Positions 9,099 through 49,954 of a stretch of DNA of 64,000 nt are shown in pieces. Under the pieces are notes generated by a model that saw nothing but the letters and a program-made list of their open reading frames with translations, did no database searches and was not told the DNA's origin. The position numbers were made by a program, and so were the translations under genes. Within the stretch, counting starts at the first letter, position 1. The number at the start of each line of letters is the position of its first letter. Source of the stretch: Atopobium sp. oral taxon 416 (lineage in GTDB: Bacteria; Actinomycetota; Coriobacteriia; Coriobacteriales; Atopobiaceae); NCBI RefSeq assembly GCF_018128285.1, contig NZ_CP072380.1, forward strand, positions 310,001-374,000, given 5' to 3'.

Positions 9099-9113
9099 AG
9101 GCCACAAAGCGAT

Positions 9114-28731: not shown

Positions 28732-29851
28732 TGTCAATATTTCGGACGGCAGATTGTCAAGCTGAGTGCAACATCTCCTTAAAGACCTCGTTGGCTGTCC
28801 TGTATTTCAGGACCTTCCTCGCCCTGTCACAGATCAGCTCCACCGCATGCTGCACCTCCTCATCCGTGACCTTGCTGAAGTCGTTGCCCTTAAGGGAAGA
28901 ACTTGCGCAGGAGCCCGTTGGTGTTCTTAACTGTCGGCTTTTGCCATAGATGGTGAGGGTGGCAGAAGTAGAACTGCACGCCTCCCAAGGCCTTTGTGAG
29001 CCCTGCATGCCCTGCGAGCTGCTTGCCCCACTTAGGCGTGAGCGTCTCGAGGGGACGTCCTTGTAGCAGCCCGACCTCAGCCTTAGAGACACTCCCGCTG
29101 TCGTGGTGGCATCTTCTTGCGACAAGCAGCCTCACTGCCCTGTCGGCAAGCACGAGCAGGCACACGGGTCCCGCTGCCACGAGCGTGTCGTCTACCCACT
29201 CTCCGAGGCAAGACCTCGCATCGGCCTGCTTTGGTCTCTCCTTTACGCTGTGTAAGATCTTGATCTTGCCCTTTGGTCTTAGGCCTCTTGCTGCGATCCT
29301 CTTCCCCTTCCTGCGCAGGTGGTGCCGCACCTGGCCTTCGGGGCCGGATCCCGGCAGGTCGAGGGTGGCGGCTTGGACCTGCCGGTAAGAATAGTCGGCA
29401 GGCTCAACGACGCACCTGCCGCCACCCTCGAGCCTGAGATATAGTCTATCTCCTCCAGGGACCAGTGTCTGTCCATGATGAGTAAGCGCACCTTCTGCGT
29501 AAGCGCAGGGTCTGAAAGCCGCCTTTTCGCCCTGCATCTCCTGCGGCGCTCATCCGCCCTCCTTTTGGGCAGTACATGCCCTAAAGCGTCCGTGCCGTGC
29601 GTTCCTCTTGAGCTTGTGGCAGACGCTGGAGCTGTCCTTGCCGATCTCTGCCGCGATATAGGCAATTGACCTTCCCTTGTGCCACGCAGCTTGGCTATGC
29701 AGTTTCTCTCCTGTGGGCTAAGATGTGTGTAGTGGCACATTCCTTCCAGCTTTCGACGTTGATTGAGACAACCAACATCGTAGCCTTCCGAAGTGTGCCA
29801 TGCTTGCATTCAGCGGGCTATCCTGTTGCACTTAGAATGCTAATCCGCCGT
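28732..29851 (-). mobile_element. IS30-family element copy 2, frameshifted
   Basis: Same element as copy 1. The transposase runs on the minus strand from an ATG at 29740 (MCHYTHLSPQERNCIAKLRG) to a stop at 28757, across at least three frames. The middle frame has LIMDRHWSLEEIDYISG and the last frame AKLLG-like TANEVFKEMLHSA. The left end TGTCAATATTTCGGACGGC is the same sequence that lies outside the right end of copy 1 (2631-2646, reverse strand), so it is probably the outermost part of the terminal repeat. The frameshifts make it inactive. Confidence 0.8.
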
Positions 29852-30188
29852 GGCAAAGAAAGACCTCGCCACGGCACTATCGCAGCAGGTGCCCAAGCGG
29901 CTGCAGGAGAGCCTCACATCGTTGTTTTTAAGCCCATAGAGCAGGCAAGACAAGTGCCCCAGCCACTTCGTAGAAGACCCCATGGAAGAAAAGCAGGAAC
30001 TCGCGCAGCCTTCGCTGCATCGCATTGACGAGCCCGAGCTCGCCGTGCACGGCCTTCTTCGCCACGCTCGCCGTGTGCTTGAAGACCCCAGGCGAGGAGA
30101 GCCACGCGCGCATATCCTGCATGGTCGTCAGTGGCGACCCATAAGCTGTCGATGATGCCTGAAAGGGCATCTGTCAGCTCTTCTGAGC
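29852..30188 (-). pseudogene. Fragments of IS3-type transposase and unknown ORF
   Basis: Right after the IS30 end the minus strand reads DVRLSCSRLGTCCDSAVARS followed by FFAT. This is the IS3 DDE-domain segment containing the catalytic region before the final Glu (compare VRLSVGRTGSCHDNAVAKSF in the adjacent IS3 copy). The rest, up to 30188, contains a minus-strand frame with VNAMQRRLREFLLFFHGVFY that I cannot assign. Both are debris trapped between two insertion sequences. Confidence 0.4.
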
Positions 30189-31583
30189 TGTAATCTTTTG
30201 GTGGACAGTGGGATTCAGGGACTGGCAACAGATATGCTCTGTCCAGATACCCACCTACCAACACCAGCAGATTGAAGCGATGAGATGTCAGTGAGCGCAA
30301 GCGAGATAGAGAAGGCAAAGTCCCGCACGAAGCCAGGGACACCCAAACACTACACTGAAGGAGTATTGCCTCGAGGCCATCGACTACTACAGGAAGGCAC
30401 GTAAGGCCAACCCGAAGAAGAGCATCAGAGGATGCGCCGCGAAGCTTAAGGGTCAACGACAAGACCTTAAACGACTGGATCATCAAGCACTCAAAGACCA
30501 AAAGGGTCACCCAGGAAAGGACCGACGAGCACAAGCAGCTCGACGCAGTGAACAGGCGCATACACGAGCTCGAAAGCGAGAATAAGTTCCTAAAAAGTGG
30601 CAGCCTTCTTCGCCGGAAGCCTCTGACGAAGGACAGGTTTTAGCTCATGCTGGAGAAGAGGGCAACCTACAGCGTCTCGATGATGGAGCGCGTACTGGAG
30701 GTGAGCAGGGCTCACTTCTACAGATGGCTCAAGGCCAAAGGCGGCGAGGACCTATGGGGTCCTATCAAGGAAGCCATCTGCGCGATATGGGAGGAAAGCG
30801 ACAGGCGCTTTAGCTTTTGCTAGGTCTGATCCAAGCTCACAGGTGACCCGAAGTTACGCAAAATTTACAGGCACGACCCGCTACCGTGTGCGCAGGTGCA
30901 TGGCTAAGCTAGGCATCTGCGGTATCTGATCCAATGCCTCCAAGAGAACGATACTGCCCGCACCGGATACCCCCGAGCGCCCCGCCCTCACCCGGCGCGA
31001 CTTTTCGTGTCTTGTGCCGACAGCCAAGCTCGTGGGTGATACAACCTATCTCAAGACCACGGCAGGCTTTATATATCTTACCGTCGCGCACCATCTGTGC
31101 ACACACATGGTGGTGGGCTGAAGCATACAGGACAACATGAGGGCAGGGCTTGTCGTCTTTGCCCTGAAGATGGCATATTCGCGCGGATACGTGGCTGGAG
31201 GGGCCATATTCTAAGCAGCCCAGGCAGCCAGTACATAAGCTCAGAGCTGACCGCCTGCTCAGCCGTACACGACGTGAGGCTCTCCGTGGGGAGAACCGGA
31301 AGCTGCCACGACAATGCTGTAGCCAAATCCTTCTTCGCCACGCTCAAGAACGAGTAGTACTACCACAAGCGCCTCTCGGATGCATCCACGACCAAGCACA
31401 AGGCACACGAGTTTATCGAGTCGTACTACAACCGCTTCCGCCCGCATAAGTCCATAGGAGATCGCGTACCGGCAGAGGTGATGCAGGAGTTCTTCGAGCG
31501 CTTCGAGAGAGGCCTTACATACGATCCAAAGGTGATGCAGACCGCATAAAAAATCTGAGATTCCTCTGTCCATTATATTGACA
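30189..31583 (+). mobile_element. IS3-family element copy 1, degenerate
   Basis: A 1395-bp element. The left end TGTAATCTTTTGGTGGACAG and the right end, read inwards TGTCAATATAATGGACAG, are imperfect inverted repeats. OrfA remnants start near 30287 (MSVSASEIEKAKSRTK). OrfB starts at 30647 (MLEKRATYSVSMMERVLEVS) and reaches SVGRTGSCHDNAVAKSFFAT and YYNRFRPHKSIGDRVPAEVM near the end. Stops and frameshifts occur after FSFC, around 31120 and 31210, and at NE-stop-YYH. Copies 2 and 3 at 58663 and 61570 share most of these lesions, which suggests spread of an already damaged or programmed-frameshift element, or shared decay. Confidence 0.8.
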
Positions 31584-32148
31584 GGGCTCAATTTGCTTCA
31601 AGTTCTCTGCCAGCACAGAAAGTGCCCGGCAGATGTGGTGGACATCGCAGGAGGGTCCTTCTGTCAGCTCACGTGCGAACTGTGCAGTCGCCCTTTTGGA
31701 CGAGGGCTCTATCACACGTCCGTATATGAGTCTGGACAGGATCGAGTCCAGATCGTCTGGACAGGATCGAGTCCAGATCATATTCGGCCTTGCTTCGCGA
31801 CTGTATGCCCTTGCATATCTCAGGAAGCCCGAGTGCTGTGTAGATATCCTGCAAGAAGAGGTAGCCACAGTTGAACGTACGTCGTTTGCCGGCCTCTATC
31901 TGTCTTGTGGGGTCATAGAAGATAGTGACTTTGCGGGTGAGTTCGCCCTCCTGCTCTGTCATCCGCCTTGCCTCTTCCCTGGCCCAGCCCATCACGTCCG
32001 TGCCCGAGGGGAGCATCCCCTCGAGCTCGGATCTGGTCCCAAGTCTCCTTACGATCTTTGAGGTGGACCTGCCGGTCCTCCTGTCCCGATAGGTCTTGGC
32101 TATATAGAAGGTCTCGCTGGCCTTGGTCCTTGTTAGCTGAACCTTCAT
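31584..32148 (-). pseudogene. IS1634-family transposase N-terminal fragment
   Basis: The minus strand begins at ATG 32148 with MKVQLTRTKASETFYIAKTY, then STSKIVRRLGTRSELEGMLP and RQIEAGKRRTFNCGYLFLQD, the typical N-terminal half of an IS1634 (IS4-like) transposase. A second frame continues DSILSRLIYGRVIEPSSKRA and EGPSCDVHHICRALSVLAEN. The frame is broken by a precise 25-bp tandem duplication (31730-31754 repeated at 31755-31779). The catalytic C-terminal half is lost at the IS3 end (31583). Confidence 0.8.
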
Positions 32149-33578: not shown

Positions 33579-35502
<1,924 letters not shown>

Positions 35503-35514
35503 GGAGACAGGTAC

Positions 35515-36981
35515 ATGTCTGAGTTCGCATTCGAAAAAGATCTTGAAGTCCACGAGACCGACATAGACGGCCTCAAGGTCGTGGAGCTCTCCGTGCATGG
35601 AGACTCGAGAGGCTGGTTCAAGGAGAACTGGCAGAGGGCCAAGATGGTGTACTTGGGAATCCCCGACTTCCATGTCGTGCAGAACAACATCTCCTTCAAC
35701 GCGGAGAGGGGCGTCACGCGTGGCATCCATGCGGAGCCATGGAACAAGTTCATCTCCGTCGCCACGGGTTCCATCTTTGGCGCATGGGTCGATCTCAGGG
35801 CCGGCTCTGCCACCTTCGGGAAGGCCTACACCACGACGCTCGATCCCTCCCGTGCCATCTATGTCCCGAGAGGCGTTGGCAACTCCTTTCAGGCCCTGGA
35901 GGACGGCACGGCCTATACCTACCTCGTGGATGCGTACTGGTCGGCGGAGCTCAAGCGCACCTACACCTTCGTGAACCTAGCGGACCCCGATCTTGCTATC
36001 AAGTGGCCCATCCCGCTCTCTAAAGCCATACTCTCCGAGGCAGACCTCCACCATCCGTATCTCAAGGATGTCGTCCCCATGGTCCCGAAGAGGACGCTCG
36101 TGACAGGATGCAGGGGACAGCTGGGACGGGCCGTGCGGCAGCTCGCCGAGAGCAGGGGCCTCCTCACCTCCTTCGACTTCTGTGATATCGATACCTTCGA
36201 CTTCTCGGATCCTTCTTCCTACTCCGAGTACGACTGGGACCTCTATGGTACCGTGATCAACTGCGGTGCCTGGACAGCGGTGGATAAGGCGGAGACCCCA
36301 GAAGGCCGCGTCTCCTGCTGGGAGGCGAACGCCCAAGGCCCGGCCCTGCTCGCACGCACCTGTGCAGAGCATGGCATCGTGCTCGTTCACATCTCCTCCG
36401 ACTACGTCTTCGACGGGACGAAGGAGCCCCACACGGAGACAGAGCCCTTCAGCCCGCTTTCCGTCTACGGCCAGTCCAAGGCAGCAGGAGACCTCGCCGT
36501 CGCAGGATGTCCGAAGCACTATATCCTGAGGAGCTCTTGGGTCATAGGGGACGGTCACAACTTTGTGAAGACCATGGCTTCGCTCTCCGACAGGTGCGCA
36601 GACCCCGATGATACCCTTGACCACGTCACCGTCGTGGACGACCAGCTGGGACGTCTCACCTTCACGCGTGACATGGCGGCAGCTATCTTCCATCTTCTGG
36701 ACACCCATGTGGCATATGGCACCTACGGCTGCACAGGATCGGGGGCTGTGAAGAGCTGGGCGGACATAGCACGTGCCGTCTTCCAGCAGAGGCACGGCAA
36801 CGGCAGTGCTGTTGTGCCCGTCTCCACCAAGGAATACTACGCATCCGCTAAGGGACCCATAGCCCTCAGGCCGGTGCACTCTGCCCTTTCGCTCGCCAAG
36901 CTCGAGGCTGCAGGCTTCCACATGCCCGACTGGGAGGAAGAGCTCACGAAATACCTTTCTTCACTTCTGGAGAGCCGTTAG
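35515..36981 (+). CDS. rmlCD: Fused dTDP-rhamnose epimerase/reductase
   Basis: A 488-residue fusion. Residues 1-185 form an RmlC-like cupin epimerase (FKENWQRAKM, GVTRGIHAEPWNKF with the catalytic His at about 72, GAWVDLRAGSATFGK, VPRGVGNSFQALEDGTAYTY). Residues 193-488 form an RmlD reductase (LVTGCRGQLGRAV, VINCGAWTAVDKAE, VHISSDYVFDG, and YGQSKAAGD with the YxxxK pair). The two parts catalyse the last two steps to dTDP-L-rhamnose. Such fusions are known in Coriobacteria, Bifidobacterium and some Firmicutes. GGAGACAGGTAC precedes the ATG. The epimerase half has AEPWNK where stand-alone RmlC usually has YQ.P..Q.K, so it is a divergent variant. Confidence 0.9.
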   Translation: MSEFAFEKDLEVHETDIDGLKVVELSVHGDSRGWFKENWQRAKMVYLGIPDFHVVQNNISFNAERGVTRGIHAEPWNKFISVATGSIFGAWVDLRAGSATFGKAYTTTLDPSRAIYVPRGVGNSFQALEDGTAYTYLVDAYWSAELKRTYTFVNLADPDLAIKWPIPLSKAILSEADLHHPYLKDVVPMVPKRTLVTGCRGQLGRAVRQLAESRGLLTSFDFCDIDTFDFSDPSSYSEYDWDLYGTVINCGAWTAVDKAETPEGRVSCWEANAQGPALLARTCAEHGIVLVHISSDYVFDGTKEPHTETEPFSPLSVYGQSKAAGDLAVAGCPKHYILRSSWVIGDGHNFVKTMASLSDRCADPDDTLDHVTVVDDQLGRLTFTRDMAAAIFHLLDTHVAYGTYGCTGSGAVKSWADIARAVFQQRHGNGSAVVPVSTKEYYASAKGPIALRPVHSALSLAKLEAAGFHMPDWEEELTKYLSSLLESR

Positions 36982-36984
36982 AAA

Positions 36985-38388
36985 ATGAAATACGTACAGA
37001 TAAACGCCTACTCTGGCGGATGGGCAGAAAACATCGTATTCAAGAAGCACAAGGAGCTCATCGCCAACGGCAACGAGTCTTGGGTCTTTTGGGCACGCGG
37101 TGACCATGAGCAGGATGAACACATGCAGAGGATTGCGTCTCTGCCCGAGGTATGCCTGGATGGCGGGCTGACACGCCTCGACGGTAGGCCTGGTTTCCAC
37201 TCTAAGGGAATCACGCGGCGTCTGCTTTCAAAGCTTGATAAGATTGATCCCGATATCGTCCATCTTCACGTGCTCACTGGCTATTACATCAATGTGGAGA
37301 TGCTCTTCGAGTGGCTTGCTCGCCATCGTTGCAAGGTCATCTGGACTCTCCATGATTGCTGGGATTTTACAGGTCACTGCACCCACTTCACCTATGTAAA
37401 GTGTGACCAGTGGAAGAATGGTTGTGCGTTCGCTGCATCTTGTCCCCAGAAGCGGGAGTACCCGGAGACCATTGCGGGTGACGCTGCCGTGCAATGGTCC
37501 TACGAGCACAAGAGGAAGCTCTTCACAATGTTGCCTCCCGAGCGGGTGCAGCTCATCACACCATCGCAGTGGCTAGCTGACCTTGTGAAGCAGAGCTATC
37601 TTGCCAAATACGATGTGGAGGTCGTGCACAACACCATCAACACGGACATCTTCAAGCCGACGCCCTCTGACTTCAGAGAGCGATACGGACTGGGAAATCG
37701 CTTTGTCGTACTTGGTGTCGCTTCCAAGTGGAGTGAACGAAAGGGCCTCAAAGACTTCGTGCGATTGGCGAATGATCTCGACTCTGAACGCTTTGCTATC
37801 GTTCTCGTTGGGCTTTCTGAGAAACAGATCAAGCAGATTAAGCACGAGGCAGAGAACATTGTGGCCCTGCCGCGTACGGAGAGTCAAGAAGAACTCGCGA
37901 AGGCTTATACGGCGGGAGACGTCCTCCTCAATCCGAGTGCGGAGGAAACCTTTGGGATGAATGTTGCCGAGGCGGAAGCATGCGGTGCCGACGCTGTCGT
38001 TGTTGAGGGTTCAGCTTGTGCCGAGGTAGCTGACCCGGCCAAGACTGTGACCATTCCCATGGATCTTTCGGGCTTGGAAGTCACCATTGTAAAACTCGCG
38101 AGGGGGGGTCGCATGATTCTGATGCCTAAGACACAGAATGGATTGCAGCTGGCGGCTATCTACAGCGCAGTGGATGTGCTCTTCAACCCGACGGTAGAGG
38201 ACAACTATCCAACTGTCAACTTAGAGGCCGAGGCTTGTGGCACGTCCGTAGTGACTTATGACACGGGCGGGTGTCGGGAGACTGTTGCTCGATATCCCCT
38301 ATCGTCGTATGTGGTGGATGGTTACGAGCCTGCGCTAAGGGTTCTTTTTTTACTGATGACCGGAACGGTGAATTATGGACAATGCTAA
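36985..38388 (+). CDS. Chimeric family 4 glycosyltransferase
   Basis: 467 residues with GT-B fold features. The N-terminal acceptor domain (VQINAYSGGWAENIVF, DIVHLHVLTGYYINVE, WTLHDCWDFTGHC) resembles WcaC/Rhamnan-type GT4 enzymes. The donor domain is at about 200-370 (NTINTDIFKP, GVASKWSERKGL). The EX7E-type motif appears twice: LLNPSAEETFGMNVAEAEAC at about 313-332 and LFNPTVEDNYPTVNLEAEAC at about 395-414. A normal GT4 has one, so the end (from about residue 376) appears to be the tail of a second GT4 gene joined by recombination. It then stops without the usual C-terminal helix. Whether it is active is uncertain. Confidence 0.7.
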   Translation: MKYVQINAYSGGWAENIVFKKHKELIANGNESWVFWARGDHEQDEHMQRIASLPEVCLDGGLTRLDGRPGFHSKGITRRLLSKLDKIDPDIVHLHVLTGYYINVEMLFEWLARHRCKVIWTLHDCWDFTGHCTHFTYVKCDQWKNGCAFAASCPQKREYPETIAGDAAVQWSYEHKRKLFTMLPPERVQLITPSQWLADLVKQSYLAKYDVEVVHNTINTDIFKPTPSDFRERYGLGNRFVVLGVASKWSERKGLKDFVRLANDLDSERFAIVLVGLSEKQIKQIKHEAENIVALPRTESQEELAKAYTAGDVLLNPSAEETFGMNVAEAEACGADAVVVEGSACAEVADPAKTVTIPMDLSGLEVTIVKLARGGRMILMPKTQNGLQLAAIYSAVDVLFNPTVEDNYPTVNLEAEACGTSVVTYDTGGCRETVARYPLSSYVVDGYEPALRVLFLLMTGTVNYGQC

Positions 38389-39793
38389 AGGTTTGATGCC
38401 ATGCGAGGCCTTGCCGCCTTCCTTCGTCGGTTCTGGAGGAAGGCACTCTTTGACTTGTCGTAAGTCTGCCAATGCTCGTTTCGGCGACGACACAGCGGTA
38501 CTTTCCGCGTTCATAATTCTTTCGACGCTATCGTCTACTTTCATTGGGGCGAAGTTCCTGGGCATATCTGTCCCTGTTGCCCTTCAACTTCCATTCATCA
38601 TCTATGTCACGGTGAAGTACGGTGCCAGCCTTAGGATTCCATACAAGCAATCTCTTTTTTGGTTCGTTTGTCTGGGTCTTTTTTCCTACCTTTATTCGTT
38701 GCTTCTCTCTTACGCTGATTTGAAAGGTTACGTGTCCGACCACATTACCTACTGCGTCGAATACACCATCTGTATCATTCCTCTCATAGTGTGCTATAGC
38801 AATATTCCAGATGGTCGAGATCGCCTTCGATGGGGAATTGTCTGGGCGTGCAGACTCGAATGCATATGGGGAATACTGCAGCTCCTTCTCTACACTATCG
38901 CGGGCGTCAATATCAGCCAGGTTGTGTTTGGCGATTTGCTACACCTCACCAATACTAACGACTGGCTAACTACCTATAATGCAGGAGACGCCACTCACAT
39001 TCGAACTGAATTGCGGCTCACTGGTACCACATCGGATGGAGCTTTTCTAGGACTCTTCCTTGTTGTGGGCCTTGTACTCGACCGTTCATTACTCATGAGA
39101 GTCGTTTACATTATGGCCGCCATGCTGAGTGTACAGCGTGCAACTGTTGTTTGCATGGTAGTTGTAATTGCGGTCTATGTTTATAGACGGATTAAAGCCT
39201 CGTTGAGCGAACAGAAAAAACGCTCGCACCTGCGAGTTAGGAATATCGCAATAGTCCTTGCGATTAGTGTAATCATTATTTTTTTCTTGTATCGATACTC
39301 GGATATTGTTATTTCTCGTTTCGGGCTGATGCTGGCCCGATTTAACACCTCAGGTACAGATGGAACCTACAGGCACGTGATGTATATACCTTGGGTCTTA
39401 CAAGCGCTCATCTCCACGAATCCATTCGTGGCACTTTTCGGTGTTGGCTTAAGATCATCTGGTGTGCTGCTTTCTGATCCGGATGGCCCTTTCTGGCAGT
39501 ATCTTAATGCCTACATGCAGAGTGGTAGGAGCTGGGCAATCGAATCTGACATCGCCTGCGTCTTTGGTGGATGTGGGCTTGTTGGAGGTCTTGTATATCT
39601 ATACATGTTCGGCATGTTTTTTAGCCGATGCAGCAATGATTACAGAGTATTGGTACTGGCGGTCTTCTGCTTTGCATTTATGTACGACTTCAGCTCTCTT
39701 ATTGTTGGCTACCTAATCTACACGCTTTTGATGCTTGATTCGATGCGAAATAGCGGTTACAAAATCAGATATGAGGGGATTGCTAGTGTTTAA
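38375..39793 (+). CDS. Wzy-like O-antigen/capsule polymerase
   Basis: A 472-residue integral membrane protein with about 10-11 predicted helices. The first starts at about residue 43, and a large loop follows helix 9 (LARFNTSGTDGTYRHVMYIP). Layout and composition match Wzy/O-antigen ligase-type polymerases, which join repeat units on the outer face of the membrane. Family sequence conservation is low, so the assignment rests on topology and context. The start overlaps the end of the chimeric GT4 by 14 bp. GC content is lower than that of the rml genes, a common feature of the variable part of capsule clusters. Confidence 0.7.
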   Translation: MDNAKGLMPCEALPPSFVGSGGRHSLTCRKSANARFGDDTAVLSAFIILSTLSSTFIGAKFLGISVPVALQLPFIIYVTVKYGASLRIPYKQSLFWFVCLGLFSYLYSLLLSYADLKGYVSDHITYCVEYTICIIPLIVCYSNIPDGRDRLRWGIVWACRLECIWGILQLLLYTIAGVNISQVVFGDLLHLTNTNDWLTTYNAGDATHIRTELRLTGTTSDGAFLGLFLVVGLVLDRSLLMRVVYIMAAMLSVQRATVVCMVVVIAVYVYRRIKASLSEQKKRSHLRVRNIAIVLAISVIIIFFLYRYSDIVISRFGLMLARFNTSGTDGTYRHVMYIPWVLQALISTNPFVALFGVGLRSSGVLLSDPDGPFWQYLNAYMQSGRSWAIESDIACVFGGCGLVGGLVYLYMFGMFFSRCSNDYRVLVLAVFCFAFMYDFSSLIVGYLIYTLLMLDSMRNSGYKIRYEGIASV

Positions 39794-40721
39794 TAGCCTT
39801 GTCCTCTCCACCTACAACGGGGCACGATATGTACGTGATCAGCTTGATTCGCTGGTTGCGCAGACGCTGCCTTTCGACGAAGTACTCGTCTCGGACGACT
39901 GTTCAACCGACGAAACGGCCGAGATTGTGCGATCCTGCATTTGCGAGCGCGAACTGAACAATTGGTTTCTCTCGGTAAATCCGGAGAACAGGGGTTGGAA
40001 GCGGAACTTCCATGACCTGATCCGCCGGGCCTCTGGGGATTATGTGTTCCTCTGCGATCAGGATGACATCTGGCTTCCCGAGAAGGTCGCGTGCATGGTG
40101 GGGGTCATGGAGACCCATTCTGACATTGATTTACTCGCCTGTGACGTCGAGCCCTTCTACGAGGAGGGTTCGCAAAAGCTGACAGATATGCGGGGGACAC
40201 TCTGTGATTGTGATGGGCGTATTGAGGCCGTTCAGGTGGACAACCATGCGGTGTACGTGCAGCGTCCGGGCTGCTCCTACTGCGTACGCGGTAGTTTCAT
40301 CGGCCAAGTCGAGCCTTACTGGGACGAGAGCTGGGCCCATGATGCCGTCCTGTGGATGCTTGCTGAGTCCAAGGGATCGCTAGCACTCTATCGCAAGCCC
40401 TTGGTGCGGTTTCGACGGCATGAGGGGAATGCCTCTGCTCGCAAGAAGATGACCCGCGAGGCGAGGACTGCCGATATCAGGGACCTTCTCTCTCGAGTTG
40501 ATAAGATGGAGATGTTCTCTCGTGACCTCGGGTGCTTGACACCAGAGAAGGAGGAGACGCTCGAGAACTTCCGCGCGTGGCTTGACGCGCGGGAGGGGCT
40601 TTTGGAATCGAGACGACTTGACCAGCTGGGGAAAGTCCTCAGTGGTCATTCACGATATGTGAGCACCAAGGGGATGCTCGTTGACCTTATACTGACCCTG
40701 TTCAGAAACGCAAGATTATGA
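39786..40721 (+). CDS. Family 2 glycosyltransferase
   Basis: About 311 residues from GTG 39786 (an ATG at 39771 is in frame, but AGGGGA fits the GTG). GT-A motifs: NSLVLSTYNGARYVRDQLDS at the N-terminus, VLVSDDCSTDETAEIV, NPENRGWKRNF, and FLCDQDDIWLPEKV containing the DxD-like metal site. A later AHDAVLWMLAE and RKPLVRFRRHEGNAS match the rhamnosyl/hexosyltransferase group. It overlaps the Wzy-like gene by 8 bp, and its stop overlaps the following flippase start (ATGA). Its acceptor and donor are unknown; the donor may be a nucleotide sugar other than dTDP-rhamnose. Confidence 0.8.
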   Translation: MFNSLVLSTYNGARYVRDQLDSLVAQTLPFDEVLVSDDCSTDETAEIVRSCICERELNNWFLSVNPENRGWKRNFHDLIRRASGDYVFLCDQDDIWLPEKVACMVGVMETHSDIDLLACDVEPFYEEGSQKLTDMRGTLCDCDGRIEAVQVDNHAVYVQRPGCSYCVRGSFIGQVEPYWDESWAHDAVLWMLAESKGSLALYRKPLVRFRRHEGNASARKKMTREARTADIRDLLSRVDKMEMFSRDLGCLTPEKEETLENFRAWLDAREGLLESRRLDQLGKVLSGHSRYVSTKGMLVDLILTLFRNARL

Positions 40722-41488
40722 ATAAGCATGCAATCCTGCAGAACATGTCAGTGGCCTTCTTGGCTCAAGGCGTGAGCCTATCGCTGTCCGTCTTGCAAAC
40801 TTTACTGGTACCTAAGCTGCTGGGTGTAGAGCAGTACGGCTACTGGCAGCTTTACATCTTCTACGTAAGCTATGTTGGCTTTTTCCATCTTGGGCTCTCT
40901 TCGGGCGTGTATCTGGCCACGGGTGGGCAGACGCGTGAGGAGATGGACAAGGCCTCCATCAAGAGTCAGATGCTCTTCGGAGCCTTCTACGAAACGATCA
41001 TGGCCGTGGTAATCGTCTTGCTTTCGACTTTTCTACGGGCGGGTGCTGAGCGCACCTTCGTCATTGTGATGACGGCCATCTACTTGGTGCTGCAGAATCT
41101 GGCTACGTTCATGATGAATGAGCTGCAGTGTATGAACGAGACCAAGAAGTCGTCCTACTCGACCATCATTGAGCGATTGGCCTTCTTGGTACCGTTGCTT
41201 GTATTCCTGGTGATGAAGGTCGATAGCTTCTACCCCTACGTCTTCGCCTATACGGCCTCGACTGTAGTGCAGCTGGCCTACTGTGCCTGGAATCTGCACG
41301 ACTTTTGGAAGGCCTCTTGGCTGGGAATGCGCCGAGCGGCAGAGTTGAGCTGGGAGAGCATCAAGATAGGATTTCCCATGATGCTAGCCAACATCATGAG
41401 CATGCTGATACTGGGCATCGGTCGTTTCTTGGATGTAACGAACCAAAGGAGGTGCCCATGCTTGAAGCGGCATTCTGGGCAACGTTAG
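40718..41488 (+). pseudogene. Truncated Wzx flippase (duplicate 5' part)
   Basis: The first 238 residues equal those of the full flippase at 42725-44128, except for the few after the start (MNKHAIL here, MNKRYIL there). After LGIGRF the frame runs into unrelated sequence (LDVTNQRRC) and stops at 41488. It is a remnant of a 698-bp direct duplication (40733-41430 equals 42740-43437). At least seven helices would still be made, but the C-terminal half of the MATE/PST fold is missing, so it is probably non-functional. Confidence 0.85.
40733..41430 (+). repeat. 698-bp direct repeat, copy 1
   Basis: Appears base-identical with 42740-43437 in every line compared, including the antisense frame. Offset 2007 bp, which is a multiple of three. 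The unit contains the 5' part of the flippase gene, and the two copies flank the second polymerase gene. Confidence 0.9.
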
Positions 41489-42732
41489 CAGTATGGCTTT
41501 TGACCGTCTTCTTCCGGCGGAAGCGCTTCAAGATATACGGCATCAACAGTCTGATGCTTGTTGGTGTCGTCCTGCCGCTTGTCCTCTACTTCGCTGACTG
41601 GTCCATCCTCATTGACCCTATTGTCAGCCCTAACTTCTACATCATCTTCCTGTTGGTCAACCTCAGTATGATAGTCTATTCTCTGGTGGCGGATGAGACC
41701 CTCCCCGATAGTACGAGCAACATGCTCTCGCGGATGTCCGTTCGCTACCTCGATGGCATCAACATCGTGTTCCTATTTCTGTACGTCCTCGAGACATATC
41801 TCCTCTCTGGGCAGTTTGCCCCAGCGCTGCATGGGGTGGATGTGCACACTGCCTCCTTCCCCGTGGTCTCCTTTGTGACTAGGAATCTTGCTGTCCCTGC
41901 CCTTCTCGACCTTATCTGCTTCAGAAACACGCATAGGAAGCGCTATCTTTTCTATGTTGCCGCCATCGTCCTTTTGCCAATCCTCACACGAAATGCCCGC
42001 ATGGTCTCATTCGAGGTCCTGCTTGCGCTCGCAGTCATGGCAGCGGTCATGTATTCTACGTCACCTCACAAGTGTTTGCGCAATATCCTTTACGTTAAGG
42101 TTCGCAGAATCGTCGGGGTCTTCGTTGTCTGCGTAATGGCAGTGAGTCTGGTTTTGTACGCCGTACAGCTCACGAACGAGCGCACGATAAGGAACGGCGC
42201 CGTTGGCTTTGACTATGGTGACTCGATAGGCTATACGGGTCCTCTCGGTAACGTTGGGGCAGTCTACTATGGATACTTCCCAATCTCCTATAACAACCTC
42301 AATATGCGGCTCAAGTACGATGTGTCGAACCCGAACCCACTCGGGTTCTACAGCTTTGCATCGCTGTGGTTTGGCGTGCTCGAGATCGACAACGTGTTCG
42401 ATATATCGACCACGCAAGACGTGGCAAACCGCATCGTTACGACGAGTTCCGCCACCGTGCCCACGGCGTTCTGGACCTATTGGTATGACTACGGTATCTT
42501 CGGGTTTTTCCCAGTGTTAGTGATGGTGTGGCTCACCTACACCGTACTTACGAAGTGCAGAAAGAACGCGCGCGCGGGGGGTTCTCTCTTAGTCTATACC
42601 TTTCTTGGCTCGAAGATCTTCTTTGAGTCTTTCCAGAATACCTACTTTGCTACTCCTGTAATTTGGGGTGTCTTCATCATCTGGGTTATCTGCAAGCTTT
42701 GTGTGACGTACGAGGGCAATACGCATGAATAA
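41458..42732 (+). CDS. Second Wzy-like polymerase
   Basis: A 424-residue multi-pass membrane protein with about 10-12 helices. The N-terminal helix lies at residues 3-18 and the first strong motif is LPLVLYFADWSILIDPIVS. A large loop with TNERTIRNGAVGFDYGDS lies in the second half. The pattern and lack of catalytic motifs fit the oligosaccharide repeat-unit polymerase (O-antigen polysaccharide polymerase Wzy) family. AAAGGAGG lies just before ATG 41458, inside the unrelated tail of the truncated flippase. Its last codons overlap the start of the full flippase by 8 nt. A cluster rarely keeps two polymerases, so only one may be used at a time. Confidence 0.7.
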   Translation: MLEAAFWATLAVWLLTVFFRRKRFKIYGINSLMLVGVVLPLVLYFADWSILIDPIVSPNFYIIFLLVNLSMIVYSLVADETLPDSTSNMLSRMSVRYLDGINIVFLFLYVLETYLLSGQFAPALHGVDVHTASFPVVSFVTRNLAVPALLDLICFRNTHRKRYLFYVAAIVLLPILTRNARMVSFEVLLALAVMAAVMYSTSPHKCLRNILYVKVRRIVGVFVVCVMAVSLVLYAVQLTNERTIRNGAVGFDYGDSIGYTGPLGNVGAVYYGYFPISYNNLNMRLKYDVSNPNPLGFYSFASLWFGVLEIDNVFDISTTQDVANRIVTTSSATVPTAFWTYWYDYGIFGFFPVLVMVWLTYTVLTKCRKNARAGGSLLVYTFLGSKIFFESFQNTYFATPVIWGVFIIWVICKLCVTYEGNTHE

Positions 42733-44128
42733 ACGATATATCCTGCAGAACATGTCAGTGGCCTTCTTGGCTCAAGGCGTGAGCCTATCGCTGTCCGTCT
42801 TGCAAACTTTACTGGTACCTAAGCTGCTGGGTGTAGAGCAGTACGGCTACTGGCAGCTTTACATCTTCTACGTAAGCTATGTTGGCTTTTTCCATCTTGG
42901 GCTCTCTTCGGGCGTGTATCTGGCCACGGGTGGGCAGACGCGTGAGGAGATGGACAAGGCCTCCATCAAGAGTCAGATGCTCTTCGGAGCCTTCTACGAA
43001 ACGATCATGGCCGTGGTAATCGTCTTGCTTTCGACTTTTCTACGGGCGGGTGCTGAGCGCACCTTCGTCATTGTGATGACGGCCATCTACTTGGTGCTGC
43101 AGAATCTGGCTACGTTCATGATGAATGAGCTGCAGTGTATGAACGAGACCAAGAAGTCGTCCTACTCGACCATCATTGAGCGATTGGCCTTCTTGGTACC
43201 GTTGCTTGTATTCCTGGTGATGAAGGTCGATAGCTTCTACCCCTACGTCTTCGCCTATACGGCCTCGACTGTAGTGCAGCTGGCCTACTGTGCCTGGAAT
43301 CTGCACGACTTTTGGAAGGCCTCTTGGCTGGGAATGCGCCGAGCGGCAGAGTTGAGCTGGGAGAGCATCAAGATAGGATTTCCCATGATGCTAGCCAACA
43401 TCATGAGCATGCTGATACTGGGCATCGGTCGTTTCTTCATTGACGCAGCGTGGGGTATCGAGACCTTCGGGCGTCTCTCGTTGGCGCTCTCTCTGGTGAG
43501 CTTCTTCCTCGCCTTTGTGAGCCAAGCCTCGATGGTGCTTTTCCCGTCGCTGCGCCAGGCGAGTGGGGGCGAGGTCCGAGGCTTCTATAAAGCCGCACGG
43601 GATGCGATGGGCCTCCTTTTTCCGATGGCCTACGCGTTCTACTTCCCGCTGGCGTGGATTTTGTCGCTCTGGCTTCCCGCTTACGCGGACACTTTCGTGT
43701 ACCTGATTTTTCTGTTGCCCATATGCGTCTTCGATAGTAAGTACAACATAACTGGTGTGACCTACTACAACGTGTTACGGCGCGAGCGGACGATGCTGGT
43801 CGTAAACTCGGTTGCTGCTGCGGCGTCGCTCGTGCTGACATTGTTGGCGGTGTATGTGGTGAAATCGGTCTTCGCGGTAATAGCGACGATGACTTTTGTA
43901 ATAGCTGTGAGAAGCGTGTGGTCTGAGCTATATATGAACCGGCTCCTCAGTGTGGCTGCGAGCAAGATTGGGGTCGTAGAACTAGCACTGACGGTGGAGT
44001 ACATAGCTGTGGCATACTTGCTGCCAGCGGTGCCGGCGTTTGCCGTGTATACAGCAAGCTACACGGTGTTCCTGGCGGTGTTCCGACAGGAACTGACAGA
44101 GACGGTGCAGAAGCTGCGAGCGTCATAG
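42725..44128 (+). CDS. Wzx-like polysaccharide flippase
   Basis: A 467-residue protein of the PST/MATE-type exporter family with about 12 helices. Members move lipid-linked repeat units across the membrane before Wzy polymerises them. It starts MNKRYILQNMSVAFLAQGVS and contains the loop LVPKLLGVEQYGYWQLYIFY that is common to flippases. The sequence from codon 6 to codon 238 is duplicated at 40733-41430. The start overlaps the second polymerase stop by 8 nt. A gap of 59 bp separates it from licD. Confidence 0.8.
   Translation: MNKRYILQNMSVAFLAQGVSLSLSVLQTLLVPKLLGVEQYGYWQLYIFYVSYVGFFHLGLSSGVYLATGGQTREEMDKASIKSQMLFGAFYETIMAVVIVLLSTFLRAGAERTFVIVMTAIYLVLQNLATFMMNELQCMNETKKSSYSTIIERLAFLVPLLVFLVMKVDSFYPYVFAYTASTVVQLAYCAWNLHDFWKASWLGMRRAAELSWESIKIGFPMMLANIMSMLILGIGRFFIDAAWGIETFGRLSLALSLVSFFLAFVSQASMVLFPSLRQASGGEVRGFYKAARDAMGLLFPMAYAFYFPLAWILSLWLPAYADTFVYLIFLLPICVFDSKYNITGVTYYNVLRRERTMLVVNSVAAAASLVLTLLAVYVVKSVFAVIATMTFVIAVRSVWSELYMNRLLSVAASKIGVVELALTVEYIAVAYLLPAVPAFAVYTASYTVFLAVFRQELTETVQKLRAS
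42740..43437 (+). repeat. 698-bp direct repeat, copy 2
   Basis: Partner of 40733-41430. Recombination between the two would remove 2007 bp including the second polymerase and leave one intact flippase gene joined to the glycosyltransferase 39786-40721. Confidence 0.9.
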
Positions 44129-44187
44129 GCTTCCTGCTGCCTATTGATATGGTGGACGCGGGTCCCGAGATCTGAGGAGTGATTGCA

Positions 44188-45027
44188 ATGTTACAGGAAC
44201 AAGTTCCGTGCGTGAAGGGCGAGCTTTCCCTGCGTGAGGTCCAGCTGGCATCGCTGGCCATACTGAAGCGCATAGACGCTATCTGCCGGGCTGAGGGTAT
44301 CAGGTACTGGGTGATGTACGGAACGCTCATAGGCGCCATTCGGCACCACGGATTTATCCCTTGGGACGACGATCTGGATATAGCCATGCCGAGACCTGAC
44401 TACGAGCGATTCCTGGCATACTTTGCGGAGCACTCTGACGAGCTGCGGCCCCTGGTTGCCCTACGCGGTGACGGGTCGCCGACGCTGCCTTTCCTCATCA
44501 CGCGGGTGAGCGACACTACCTACAGGATGGTCGGTGAGTACGGAGATGAGGTACCTGACCTCGGTGCGTTTGTTGATGTATATCCGATGGACGGAGCTGG
44601 AGACACGCTGGAGGGGGCACGAAAACACAAGGTTGAGTGTATGAAAGCCAGTCACAAGTACCTCCAGGCGGGAGATTTTTCTTATAACAACCGTGAGAAT
44701 GGCGCGTTGAAACGCACCTTCAAGAAAATCCACTCGACGATGCTTGGAGATGCCAGTAAGTGGGCAAATCGTGTGGTTGAGATGTCGAAGAAGCTCTCCT
44801 TTGACGAATCGACTTTTGTGGCGTGCCTTGAGTGGGACTGGGCGCTAGAGGAGATTTATCCTTCAAAGCTTTTCTCCAAGGTGGATGACGTCACCTTCGA
44901 GGACATGAAGGTCTCTGTCCCTGTTGGCTACGATAAGATTCTTACCGCTGATTATGGTGACTATATGCAGCTGCCTCCCGAGCCAGAACGCGTGGGACAC
45001 CATTTCTATGCGATTGTGAGGCGATGA
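44188..45027 (+). CDS. LicD-family phosphotransferase
   Basis: A 279-residue LicD/FKTN-type nucleotidyl- or phosphotransferase. The core motif YGTLIGAIRHHGFIPWDDDL at residues about 46-65, followed by DIAMPRPDYERF, carries the catalytic/metal-binding aspartates. A later FVDVYPMDG and the C-terminal DYGDYMQLPPEPERVGHHFY match the family. LicD-type enzymes transfer phosphocholine or polyol phosphates from CDP-activated donors to glycans. The next gene looks like a CDP-ribitol/CDP-alcohol-forming cytidylyltransferase, so a polyol phosphate is more likely than choline. ATG 44188 has GAGGAG 9 nt upstream. It overlaps the next gene by 4 bp. Confidence 0.85.
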   Translation: MLQEQVPCVKGELSLREVQLASLAILKRIDAICRAEGIRYWVMYGTLIGAIRHHGFIPWDDDLDIAMPRPDYERFLAYFAEHSDELRPLVALRGDGSPTLPFLITRVSDTTYRMVGEYGDEVPDLGAFVDVYPMDGAGDTLEGARKHKVECMKASHKYLQAGDFSYNNRENGALKRTFKKIHSTMLGDASKWANRVVEMSKKLSFDESTFVACLEWDWALEEIYPSKLFSKVDDVTFEDMKVSVPVGYDKILTADYGDYMQLPPEPERVGHHFYAIVRR

Positions 45028-45761
45028 CGTTGAAATACATGGTAATTGCCGTTATTTTTGCTGGGGGTGTAGGGACGCGTATGCGCTCCAAAGATACGCC
45101 CAAGCAGTTCCTCGTGGTACACGGGGAACCCATTATCGTACGTACGGTGCGCCACTTCCATGAGCACCCTTGCATCGATTCCATTGTGGTCGTGAGCGTG
45201 GCCGATTGGCTCGGCTATTGTCGCGATTTGCTGGCCAGTTACGGTATGAGCAAGGTCACTGCTGTGGTACCGGGCGGGACTACAGGGCAAGAGTCGATAT
45301 ACAAGGGCCTCTGCGAGGCAGAGCGTAATGCGGACGGTAAAAGAGCCGTTGTTCTTGTCCATGATGGCGTGCGTCCACTCATCGATAAAAAGACAATTAC
45401 TGCTAATATCAAGGCTGTTGAGAGGACGGGCTCCGCTGTCACCTGCGTGCCCGCCAAGGAGACTGTGCTCATGCGCGATGCATCGAGGGATGTCGTCTCG
45501 ATACCGGACCGTTCGGCATTGGAACTGGCGCGTGCTCCGCAGAGCTTCTGGTTGGATGAGCTTCTGACCGCTCATCGCGACGCCATTGGCCGTGGTAGAT
45601 GTGACTACATCGACTCAGCTTCGATGATGTTCGAGCGTGGCGTACACCTCACGCCTGTTGAGGGGCCCGATGAGAACATGACGGTAACGACGCCGGATGA
45701 CTTCTTCCTGCTGCAAGCTATCCTCAATGCTCAAGAGAATCGGCAGATCTATGGGATATAG
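45024..45761 (+). CDS. TarI/IspD-type cytidylyltransferase
   Basis: A 245-residue CTP-dependent sugar-alcohol-phosphate cytidylyltransferase. Signature VIFAGGVGTRMRSKDTPKQF at about residues 10-29, then VPGGTTGQESIYKGLCEAE, VHDGVRPLIDKKTI and a C-terminal GPDENMTVTTPDDF. IspD itself makes CDP-methylerythritol, but in a polysaccharide cluster next to LicD this subgroup normally makes CDP-ribitol or a related CDP-polyol. Start ATG/ACG: the frame opens at ATGACG (45024), overlapping the licD stop. The following reductase or epimerase would supply or modify its substrate. Confidence 0.8.
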   Translation: MTLKYMVIAVIFAGGVGTRMRSKDTPKQFLVVHGEPIIVRTVRHFHEHPCIDSIVVVSVADWLGYCRDLLASYGMSKVTAVVPGGTTGQESIYKGLCEAERNADGKRAVVLVHDGVRPLIDKKTITANIKAVERTGSAVTCVPAKETVLMRDASRDVVSIPDRSALELARAPQSFWLDELLTAHRDAIGRGRCDYIDSASMMFERGVHLTPVEGPDENMTVTTPDDFFLLQAILNAQENRQIYGI

Positions 45762-45768
45762 GGGAACC

Positions 45769-46836
45769 ATGAGGTCAGAGATACTCGACAATCTTCTGGG
45801 CGACTTAGACGGCGCCCTCCTCGAGCCCTTCCGAGACAAGGCGGTCGTGGTGACTGGGGCCACGGGGCTTATAGGCTCGCTCGTCTGCAAGGCGCTCCTG
45901 TTAGCCGACGGGAATATTAGCCTGGGGTGCGTGGTCGTGGCCGTAGTGCGCAATAGAAAGAAAGCGGAGGACATCCTCGGAGACTATGCATCCCTGGGCG
46001 ACCTTCGCATAGTTGTCTGCAACCTCGCGGAAGGTGAGGCTCCTGAGTTAGCTGAGTTAGATGGCGCAGATTTCATATTACATGCGGCTTCTGTGACCAA
46101 GTCCAGGGTGATGGTCGAGAGGCCCGTAGACGTTATTCGCACCTCCTTGAACGGTACTAAGGCCATGTTGGGACTGGCTCGTGACGCGGATGCTCGTCTG
46201 GTGTACCTCTCCTCCATGGAAGTCTATGGAACTCTTGTAGAGGGGCAGGTGGCCGACGAGTCATCTCTGGGCTGGATTGATCTCACAAGCCCCCGTACCT
46301 GTTACCCTGAGTCTAAGCGTATGTGCGAGTGCCTCTGTGCAGCCTATGCCAGCCAGTATGGGACGCAGGCGTGCTCCGCTCGCCTCGCACAGACCTTCGG
46401 AGCGGGTGTACTGCCGGGGGAGAACCGTGCCTTCGCGCAGTTCGCCCGGTCAGCCATGGCGGGCGAGGACATAGTGCTTAGGACGCGAGGCCTATCTGAA
46501 GGCAACTACGTGAACTCAATTGACTGTGTGGCCGGACTCCTCGTTCTGCTTGCGAGGGGGGAAGCCGGGCAAGCTTACAATGTGGCCAATGAGGAGTCGC
46601 ATGGGACTATTCGTGAGGTGGCACAACTGGCCGCTGATGTGCTGGGCGACGGACATTCCAATGTTGTCATCGATGTGGACGGGGAGAACTCAGCTGGCTA
46701 CGCGCCCGACGTACATCTGCGGCTCTCGTCCAAAAAACTCCGTAGACTCGGCTGGGAGCCTAAGATTTCGCTTACAAGCTCTTTCCGTCAGCTGGGCACT
46801 TACATGACTGAGCAGGAAGATGACTGTATAGACTGA
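45769..46836 (+). CDS. NAD-dependent epimerase/dehydratase
   Basis: A 355-residue extended SDR. The N-terminal dinucleotide-binding motif is VVVTGATGLIGSLVCKALL at about 28-46. The catalytic YLSSMEVYG and CYPESKRMCE (YxxxK pair) are at about 145-185, followed by RLAQTFGAGV and SIDCVAGLLVLLARG. The C-terminus has RLSSKKLRRLGWEPKISL. It probably modifies the nucleotide sugar or polyol used by LicD and the cytidylyltransferase, but SDR substrates cannot be read from sequence. ATG 45769 has AGGGGA upstream; earlier in-frame starts overlap the previous gene. It is the last gene of the cluster, followed by an IS30 scrap 30 bp after the stop. Confidence 0.8.
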   Translation: MRSEILDNLLGDLDGALLEPFRDKAVVVTGATGLIGSLVCKALLLADGNISLGCVVVAVVRNRKKAEDILGDYASLGDLRIVVCNLAEGEAPELAELDGADFILHAASVTKSRVMVERPVDVIRTSLNGTKAMLGLARDADARLVYLSSMEVYGTLVEGQVADESSLGWIDLTSPRTCYPESKRMCECLCAAYASQYGTQACSARLAQTFGAGVLPGENRAFAQFARSAMAGEDIVLRTRGLSEGNYVNSIDCVAGLLVLLARGEAGQAYNVANEESHGTIREVAQLAADVLGDGHSNVVIDVDGENSAGYAPDVHLRLSSKKLRRLGWEPKISLTSSFRQLGTYMTEQEDDCID

Positions 46837-47105: not shown

Positions 47106-48353
47106 TCACGTCCACAAGCTCAAGGCTGGCATTATTGCCTTCCTGGCGAGCTCCCTGAGCTCTGCCAGCCTCTCCGGCGTGGGAGGCAGCGCAGGCTTCC
47201 GCTTCTCGAAGAGCTCTGCGAGGACCGATCCCACAAGCCTCATGAGCGACTTCTGCGAGGGGAACACCTGCACGACCTTCGTGCGGCGCTTGATCTTGTG
47301 GTTGGTGCGCTCTTGTAGGTTGTTGGTGCGCAGGCGCTTCCAGTGGGATGCAGGGAAGTCCAGGTAGGCGAGGGCATCCGCCTCGGCATCCTCCCAGATC
47401 TCTGCCACCTTGGGGCAGCACTTCTCAAGCATCTTAGCCGCGAGGTGGAAAAGGGCGCGCACCTGGTTGGTGTCCTTGGCACGAAAGACTGGAGCCATGA
47501 TCCTTGCCACCCTCTTCTTCAGGCTCCTGGAGCCTGTGGCGGCTATGCAGTTCCTCATGAGATGGACGACGCACCTTCTGCCATGTGAGAGCTCCCAGGA
47601 ACACCTTCGATATCGCCTGTCTGAGGCCCTCGTGGGCATCGCTTGTGACCAGCTGCACGCCCGAGACACCCCTGTGTCGCGGATCTTCTCCAAGAACCCC
47701 TTCCAGGAGCCGTACAGCTCGCTATCCACGACGGCAAGGCCCCAAGATGTACCTCCAGCCGTTAGCATCGCAGCCTATGGTAGTGACAATAGCCGTGGAG
47801 AGACATGGCCCTCCCGTCTGCACTTCACGTAGTAGCATCGAGCCAGATGTAGGGCATGTCAAGGTCTTTCAGGGGACGTTCCAGTAGCTCCTCGACATCG
47901 GCATCGAGGCTTTTGGCTTATGCTGCTCACCTGGTCCTCCGAGAGCCTGTCTTGTGCCCATCCACTCGGCTATCCTTTAGACCTTCCTGGTGCTCGTGCC
48001 CATCGCATACATCTCGGCCACGGCGGCTATGAGTGCCCTGTCCGTCCTCTGGTAGTGCTCGAGGATGTCGTCGGGGAAGAAGCTTGCGCCCCTGAACCTG
48101 GGGATTTTGAGGTTCAGTGTTCCCACGCAGGTGTTGAGCGTCCTCGGACGCTATGCGTTCCTACTGTTGCCACGGGCCGAGCATATCTCCTTCGTCTCCG
48201 GCGTCCATCACGGCGTTTACCACCATCTCGGCGAGCTGGCAGAAGAGCTCCTGGAGGTTGATTGATCCGTCTGCCAGCTTCGGCATCTCTGCCGCCGCAG
48301 CCGCGCACACGGCCTGCTTTGCTATGCTGTCCTTTGGCCTTTGTCCTTTCCAT
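47106..48353 (-). pseudogene. IS256-family transposase, frameshifted
   Basis: A nearly full-length Mutator-type transposase on the minus strand, from an ATG at 48353 (about MERTKAK) to a TGA at 47106. Readable parts are PKLADGSINLQELFCQLAEM with VVNAVMDAGDEGD, RRCVVHLMRNCIAATGS (the usual CQVHFMRN), KVAEIWEDAEADALAYLDFP and the C-terminal RTNNLQERTNHKIKRRTKVV. The frame changes several times between 47700 and 48300, and the first two catalytic Asp positions fall in shifted frames. It is inactive. Confidence 0.8.
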
Positions 48354-48738: not shown

Positions 48739-49954
48739 ATGGAAGGCACGTCTGTCGTTTACGCCGGCATCGACACGCACAAGGACAAGTATGTGCTGTG
48801 TGTGCTGAATGCGCTCGGCAGGATCGTCTACGAGGGCGGGTTTGCCACCGACGGCGCCGGATATCGATCGCTCGCCCACACCATCAGCGACGCCGGCCGC
48901 TGCGCGCTTGTCGGTATCGAGGGTACAGCCTTATACGGCGCTGGGATCTGCTCTTACCTGTGTGAGCGCGGCTACACTGTCATGGAGATCCTGCGGTCCA
49001 AGCGCGACAAGAGGCGCAGGGGCTCCAGCAAAAACGACGCCATAGACGCGGGGACCACCGCGCGGAACGCGGCAGCGGGGCACGGTACCTGTGTCCTAAA
49101 GTCGAGGGACGGGTGGTCCGAAGCCGTCAGGGCACTGCTGGACTTAAGAGAGCTATGCGTGAGGACCTCGACGGCGGCATCCAGCGCCGCGAAGTCCCTG
49201 GACAACATCGCGCCGGAGCCCATAAGGTCGAAGTACGAAAAGATGAGCGTTTTAGCGATGATGAAGTCGCTCGCCAGGAAAAGGTCCGCAACCGGCAGTG
49301 CCGTCACGGATGCGCTGCACACTTCGCTCCATGTTCTCGCGAAGACGTGGATCGACGCCAAGCAACGGGCCGACGAGCTCGAGGTGCTCATATCCGACCT
49401 GGTGCGCGACAACGCGCCGGCCCTGCTGGAGATCGACGGCTGCGGCGCTCGGCAACGCCGCGGGCGACAACCCCGAAAGGCTCCGCTCAAAAGCAGCACT
49501 CGCCTCGCTTTGCGGCGCCTTGCCGATAGAGGCGTCGAGCGGCAAGATCGTCAGGCACAGGCTCAACCGGGGAGGTAACAGGCAGGCCAACAGGGCCCTG
49601 CACACCATCGCCCTCAACCGGATGAAGTACGATGGGCGCACGCAGGAGTATGTCGCGAAGCGGATGGCCGAGGGCACATCGAAGCGCGAGGCAATCAGAT
49701 GCCTCAAGAGATACATCGCCCGGGAAGTCTGCTGCGCACTGATGAACCCGACAGCTAAAACCCACGAGGACGAAAGGTCGCTCAGGGCGAAAAGGGCCGA
49801 AGCCGCGATGACGCAGGAAGAGGTCGCCGCCGCACTCGGCACCGACCACATCCGCATAAGTAAGATCGAGCGCGAGGCCAGCAAGCATTACGAGATTCGC
49901 GATAGGTACTCCGCATTCATGAAGAGCAAGTTAGCGAACCTGAAAATGACTTGA
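48739..49954 (+). pseudogene. IS110 transposase with C-terminal HTH, small deletion
   Basis: A transposase of actinobacterial IS110 type, in two frames. The first runs from ATG 48739 (MEGTSVVYAGIDTHKDKYVL) to LLEIDGCG at about 49443. The second frame, from about 49447, continues GNAAGDNPERLRSKAALASL and CGALPIEASSGK. The junction lacks about ten residues of the usual GVGP.TAA.L segment, so a small deletion or frameshift has hit the start of Transposase_20. The RuvC-like residues (D in GIDTHKD, E in VGIEGTA, D in NDAIDAG) are intact. The C-terminal tail carries a Xre-like helix-turn-helix (TQEEVAAALGTDHIRISKIE), which is unusual for this family. Confidence 0.8.

Follow-up and report, generated by a model that had tools for sequence, protein, structure and literature searches.

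A candidate polymerase gene between perfect flippase repeats in Atopobium sp. oral taxon 416: a possible intermediate of polymerase exchange

Introduction

Why would a surface-polysaccharide locus hold two candidate polymerase genes, one of them enclosed by perfect direct repeats that make up half of a flippase gene? We address this question for a 64,000-nucleotide (nt) stretch of the genome of Atopobium sp. oral taxon 416 (contig NZ_CP072380.1, positions 310,001 to 374,000 of the forward strand), hereafter the window, whose first letter is position 1 in all coordinates below. The enclosed gene, wzy2, is the downstream of the two candidate polymerase genes and lies between a truncated flippase gene, wzx', and a full flippase gene, wzx. 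A first-pass annotation of the letters and open reading frames had described wzy2 as a switchable or recently acquired cassette. We instead propose, with a probability of roughly 55%, that part of this Wzx/Wzy-type locus was recently duplicated in tandem, that the duplication is heterozygous, and that we see it partway through a polymerase exchange.

The way in which surface-polysaccharide loci switch polymerases while avoiding a polymerase-less stage has so far been deduced mostly from finished products. A chromosome that carries both candidate polymerases together with a repeat able to resolve them makes the intermediate open to direct test.

Results

The two repeat copies, at 40733..41430 and 42740..43437 on the forward strand, are identical at all 698 positions and offset by 2007 bp, in agreement with the identity and spacing that the first-pass annotation had given. 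The match cannot be extended at either end at this offset: the flanks fall to background identity, and the 15-bp heads that carry the flippase start codons (40718-40732 versus 42725-42739) differ at 6 positions. It is the longest exact repeat of the window by a wide margin, the runner-up measuring 114 bp and lying within copies of an element that resembles an insertion sequence (IS). A search of the organism's own genome (one contig of 3,004,013 bases) recovered the stretch in two copies only. With no differences in 698 positions, the 95% upper bound on the divergence of the copies is 0.43%, and the annotation's reference to a recent event or gene conversion is reasonable. A segment repeated in direct order, a novel joint and the lack of further copies in the genome together mark the structure as a heterozygous tandem duplication, or merodiploid.

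Both copies lie in flippase genes on the forward strand. The upstream gene, wzx' (40718..41488; PF01943, E 8.8e-9), comprises about 238 flippase codons followed by an unrelated tail, and it is coupled by an ATGA overlap to the preceding glycosyltransferase family 2 (GT2) gene. At the novel joint (41431..41457), the flippase sequence breaks off near codon 238 and gives way to a brief leader, containing a stop codon and AAAGGAGG, that precedes wzy2. The downstream gene, wzx (42725..44128; PF01943, E 1.5e-11), encodes a full flippase of 467 residues, and its start overlaps the wzy2 stop by 8 nt. With 44.7 bits against a PF01943 cut-off of 28.2 and about 11 hydrophobic segments, its product falls within the Wzx/MOP superfamily; it had no match among PDB sequences at E 0.1.

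Removing 41431-43437 in silico yields an open flippase frame of 467 residues, identical to the present full copy except at residues 4 and 5, and the ATGA overlap with the 328-residue GT2 frame is kept. At the level of sequence, the annotation had thus correctly foreseen that a loop-out would leave an intact, in-frame flippase coupled to GT2. Its term "switchable" is not supported in a reversible sense, since we saw no repeat by which the locus could shed the upstream polymerase gene, wzy1, instead. When the end of the glycosyltransferase family 4 (GT4) gene upstream of wzy1 was compared with the GT4 remnant that follows it, the best 60-nt ungapped match was 36/60 and the longest exact word was 8 bp. 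Without a matching repeat around wzy1, the loop-out would run one way, and a return to the presumed native state would need outside DNA; the event would act as a ratchet and not as a reversible switch. Between 30 and 55 kb, the 698-bp pair is the only family of direct repeats of at least 30 nt. A search of 30000-55000 for inverted repeat pairs of at least 30 nt (seed 14), as expected of invertible phase variation, recovered none.

The annotation had counted two polymerases in the cluster, and the evidence for them differs in kind. wzy2 (41458..42732, forward strand) encodes 424 residues, in which a simple hydropathy count places about 9 hydrophobic segments. Its start sits within wzx' (31-nt overlap) and its stop overlaps the wzx start, as suits a polytopic membrane protein of a Wzx/Wzy cluster. 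The protein itself matched no polymerase model in Pfam or NCBIfam, TIGR04370 included, and the polymerase profiles had no match among PDB sequences. Two isolated matches were set aside as chance, one in NCBIfam to an unrelated enzyme (18.3 against a cut-off of 470) and one among PDB sequences at E 0.82. A remote connection appears through a relative from Paenibacillus, the sole plasmid match, which is 29% identical over 327 columns, lies beside rml-like genes and scores 70.7 against the TIGR04370 cut-off of 40. Compared with a profile of this relative and two TIGR04370 members, wzy2 matched at 94.8%, at pairwise identities to the two members of 17 and 22%. We conclude that wzy2 is likely a remote TIGR04370-type oligosaccharide repeat-unit polymerase. 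Our comparison set comprised one genome per species, and in it wzy2 occurs in its own genome only (1/140 in the family and 1/395 in the order). Five stretches of viral contigs fitted the wzy2 pattern, none of them a relative.

For wzy1 (38375..39793, forward strand; 472 residues), the assignment as a putative polymerase draws on its position between GT4 and GT2 and on its roughly 11 hydrophobic segments. No known polymerase family was matched in Pfam, NCBIfam or PDB sequences; the single Pfam match, at E 9.8, was dismissed as chance. Nor was there profile similarity (0.4% probability) to a relative's protein with multiple transmembrane segments that has a sub-threshold Wzy_C match. Near its C-terminal half, wzy1 has a stretch that may resemble Wzy_C. 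Matches to wzy1 were found in 1/140 family genomes and 3/392 order genomes, its own genome included and one of the three being weak, and none came from plasmids. The one clear relative among the 391 other order genomes (30% identity) is followed by a GT2-family gene and lies near rml-like genes. Two features prompt us to call wzy1 a polymerase: its product is the cluster's other polytopic protein, and this relative, too, stands beside a GT2-family gene near rml-like genes.

The GT4 gene upstream of wzy1 (36985..38388, forward strand) is chimeric. Residues 1 to about 372-376 form a near-complete GT4, and residues about 377-448 are the C-terminal remnant of a second one. For two homologues (G134 and G131), the alignment covers residues 1-349 and 1-372 and stops where these proteins end, their frames being 370 and 374 residues long from the aligned start. 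Three others (G137, G103 and G135) align with residues 1-313, 1-305 and 2-323, and their own C-termini align again with residues 378-448, 381-436 and 380-440 at 67, 64 and 61% identity; over partly longer stretches, BLAST gave 71, 57 and 47%. In a sixth homologue (G085), the two parts are matched equally well, at about 44% each. Where homology to the complete GT4s ends and homology to the second C-terminus begins, the left junction can be placed approximately at 38101..38116. By these alignments, the gene is a near-complete GT4 fused in frame to the last quarter of another GT4, and the fusion, which lies beyond the coordinates that the first-pass annotation gave, is probably an import scar.

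Downstream of this junction, the frames of the GT4 remnant, wzy1, GT2 and wzx' overlap one another in an operon-like manner. The GT2 gene (39735..40721, forward strand; PF00535, E 8e-23) has the first ATG of its frame at 39771, and its true start may differ. Among the loci of the six GT4 homologues, one (L103) has the order GT4, a gene for multiple transmembrane segments, GT2, flippase and LicD; remnant-wzy1-GT2-wzx' shows this order in the window, and so would the supposed import when joined to wzx and LicD. Taken together, the chimeric GT4, this gene order and the overlapping frames give the segment between the two breaks the appearance of a fragment from another operon of this kind.

We then asked which polymerase pair is the older. 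Matches to wzx were found in 24/139 other genomes of the family, at identities of at most 53%. Our survey of flippase loci covered 20, of which 18 show wzx (wzx was missed by the open reading frame picker in L044, and L038 has another flippase type). Among these 18, a TIGR04370 polymerase directly precedes wzx in L046 and L050, as in wzy2-wzx, and an open reading frame with multiple transmembrane segments does so in L043 (DUF2142) and L052 (no family). Set against the other loci, L046 and L050 indicate that both arrangements exist among relatives. Residue 4 of the flippase, compared by tblastn, is K or R in 23/26 relatives and G in three; it is R in copy 2 and H in copy 1, which argues that copy 2 carries the family-typical start. 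The GC content of wzy1 is 46.5%, the lowest of the genes measured, compared with 51.5% for wzy2, 54.1% for wzx and about 60% for the rml genes. On balance, these observations suggest that wzy2-wzx is native and wzy1-GT2 imported, although they are not conclusive. The annotation's view of wzy2 as the acquired cassette is therefore probably reversed: the evidence leans toward the remnant-wzy1-GT2 block as the import.

Around this core, other genes of the cluster lie on the forward strand. Upstream, at 33579..36981, are dTDP-rhamnose genes encoding an rmlA-like nucleotidyltransferase (PF00483), an rmlB-like dehydratase (PF16363/PF01370) and a fused rmlC-rmlD protein (PF00908 plus PF04321), the rml names being our reading of these Pfam matches. 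Downstream, at 44179..46836, are a LicD-family gene, an IspD-like cytidylyltransferase gene and an SDR-type dehydratase/epimerase gene. Pfam supports the LicD and SDR assignments, and the IspD-like gene scores 162, below the TIGR00453 cut-off of 181. Between 36.5 and 47.2 kb, we counted 6 promoter-like sites against 7.3 expected and 13 terminator-like sites against 8.0 expected (standard deviation 3.0); these counts were not used as evidence. Rfam had no match anywhere in the window.

Rhamnose genes 75-86% identical to those of the window occur in L033, a contig titled as a metagenome-assembled genome of an uncultured Eubacteriaceae, alongside a wzx that is 48% identical. The title may not fit the lineage, or the genes may have been exchanged.

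The window holds other repeats and mobile elements. Degenerate 1.4-kb IS-like copies at 30181-31590, 58656-60063 and 61562-62973 are 91-94% identical and bracket the polysaccharide cluster, and open reading frames in two of the three contain rve-type integrase domains. The first and third copies are direct repeats 31.4 kb apart that could delete the whole cluster. Downstream of the cluster are fragments of Mutator-type transposases together with an IS110-type transposase reading frame (47106-47768, 48739-49578, 60258-60515 and 63038-63370). Further long imperfect direct repeats pair 1544-2632 with 28741-29851 (88%) and 8105-9099 with 18510-19504 (89.6%).

Discussion

In the history that we favor, the native order would have been GT4-wzy2-wzx-LicD. 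A 2007-bp stretch consisting of the short leader, wzy2 and the first half of wzx would have undergone tandem duplication, or an equivalent piece would have come in from a donor. An imported block, made up of a GT4 C-terminal remnant, wzy1, GT2 and roughly five initial wzx codons, would have taken the place of wzy2 in the upstream copy. As it stands, the cell carries two candidate polymerases, both of which may act, together with one complete flippase and half of another, the latter probably dead. If RecA-type recombination took place across the 698 bp, wzy2 and the surplus half flippase would be lost; the resulting order, GT4-wzy1-GT2-wzx-LicD, would complete the swap of the native polymerase for the imported module. 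Unequal exchange between sisters could amplify the wzy2 unit. The locus may also have arisen by another route, through a single insertion of donor DNA that extends from within a GT4 into a near-identical wzx. We prefer duplication followed by replacement because the perfect identity then calls for no donor with the same flippase.

Several observations weigh against the proposed history. The data favor neither duplication followed by replacement nor one-step insertion decisively. The parallel in gene order is thin, as L103 alone fits: a pyruvyl transferase stands in for GT2 in L105 and L106, and the order from GT4 through the multiple-transmembrane gene, GT2 and flippase to LicD is missing from L101, L102 and L104. 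The flippases of these six loci belong to the same broad family, yet none gave a BLAST match to the wzx of the window. The 26 flippase starts are not independent, several sharing a genome or genus, and 4 of them fall outside the alignment (two K, two G). GC content does not set the whole block apart as foreign, given 56.0% for GT2 and 51.6% for the GT4 remnant. The leader, GGATGTAA, stops GT4 in frame at some cut points, and 18% of random stretches are expected to contain a stop within three codons in some frame; a stop this close to the right-hand break is compatible with a GT4 that formerly ended there, and we give this little weight. wzy2 and wzy1 are nearly without relatives (1/395 and 3/392 order genomes, respectively, their own included), neither wzx nor wzy2 is matched in the two other genomes of the genus, both draft assemblies, and in a comparison set of one genome per species neither state of the locus appeared outside this genome. 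The GT4, with its 90-residue extension, is putative in its activity, as are both polymerases. Finally, the genome has no match to Ku (the control match was found in only 1/14 control genomes). Ku-type end joining was accordingly rejected as the maker of the joints. A ComEC-family gene is present, as it is in 10/14 control genomes, E. coli among them; it is thus no proof of competence, and DNA uptake is conjecture.

Other explanations have to account for the same repeats. wzy2 and the first half of wzx might be the newcomer, having entered a resident GT4-wzy1-GT2-wzx-LicD locus when a small circle (or an equivalent) recombined with it through one crossover, so that loop-out would restore the ancestor. 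Such a crossover within wzx yields exactly these direct repeats around the insert, the loop-out product keeps its open and coupled flippase frame, and the resident order would be that of L103. The circle, however, would have to be closed by a non-homologous joint, a separate event would be needed for the GT4 chimera on the left, and the family-typical flippase start is that of copy 2 rather than of copy 1. We regard this account as possible but less likely than ours. A mis-assembly, in which two strain haplotypes or two real loci were joined through the shared wzx stretch, draws its appeal from a 698-bp identity that exceeds short-read length. The genome is a single 3.0-Mb contig, though, and the copies have different 15-bp heads. 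The wzx'/wzy2 and GT4/GT4 remnant junctions also lie outside the shared sequence and would need chimeric reads, which suggests that simple repeat mis-assembly is no explanation; we consider an artefact very improbable.

Maintained phase variation would explain the identity of the repeats differently, through gene conversion, with polymerase loss being programmed and frequent, for example as an escape from phages that use the polymer. There is precedent in Salmonella Typhimurium, where a wzy flanked by perfect direct repeats is excised (PMC12074656), and the repeats of the window are longer. Nothing comparable was seen, however, in the other 24 family genomes with a wzx match, two of which have further matches, all on separate contigs. 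Inverted repeats of at least 30 nt are lacking between 30 and 55 kb, no route back was found, and the half gene wzx' looks like debris. Maintained phase variation therefore strikes us as improbable.

It is tempting to generalize from the proposed history that polymerases at such loci are commonly exchanged by addition first and loop-out second, with the flippase as the shared anchor, which would spare the cell any stage without a polymerase, and that the window is a frozen intermediate of a general route leading one way, toward the imported module; we consider this extension speculative and rather unlikely.

The structure has parallels among known polysaccharide loci. A possible one is the cap duplication in Haemophilus influenzae type b, for which our literature search gave no paper; among the titles and abstract openings that the searches listed, none describes wzy between flippase halves. 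A close parallel is the Salmonella Typhimurium DT8/DT30 case, where the wzy locus is excised reversibly between 113-bp perfect direct repeats, a piece of 2558 bp (PMC12074656). When one strain was grown to stationary phase, wzy outnumbered the deleted form by about 500:1, and wzy is regained at low frequency in co-culture with a wild-type strain. The discussion of that paper notes that RecA-dependent recombination gains little from repeats beyond about 100 bp, so 698 bp should suffice. In both loci, perfect direct repeats enclose a polymerase gene, and the deletable piece measures 2-2.6 kb. The Salmonella repeats are intergenic and the excision of wzy was demonstrated, whereas ours form half of a flippase gene and their excision is a prediction. 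Unlike in Salmonella, a cell that lost the piece here would still have a complete flippase and a second, different polymerase.

Duplication and exchange have been described elsewhere. In Streptococcus pneumoniae, transformation yields merodiploids, and unstable binary-capsule cells have long been described, according to PMC3784515, which cites papers of 1959 and 1969. These cells resemble our locus in having two polysaccharide modules and unstable tandem duplications, there after DNA uptake; the duplication characterized there spans 107 kb, in contrast to the single 2-kb polymerase unit here. The meningococcal cps island carries an intact galE1 and a truncated galE2, and PMC5349592 proposes that the truncated duplicate marks capture of the capsule block by illegitimate recombination. 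Its repeats are inverted and flank the whole island, while those of the window are direct and flank one polymerase. For the Salmonella O-antigen clusters B1, D1 and D3, PMC3715488 derives B1 from B2 by acquisition of a new wzy while the previous one decayed, and notes that D3 duplicates part of wzy. There, the new wzy lies outside the cluster; in Atopobium sp. oral taxon 416, both candidate polymerases share one operon with a route for loop-out. The structure is thus a variation on known cases of polymerase exchange and excision and is best read as an exchange intermediate.

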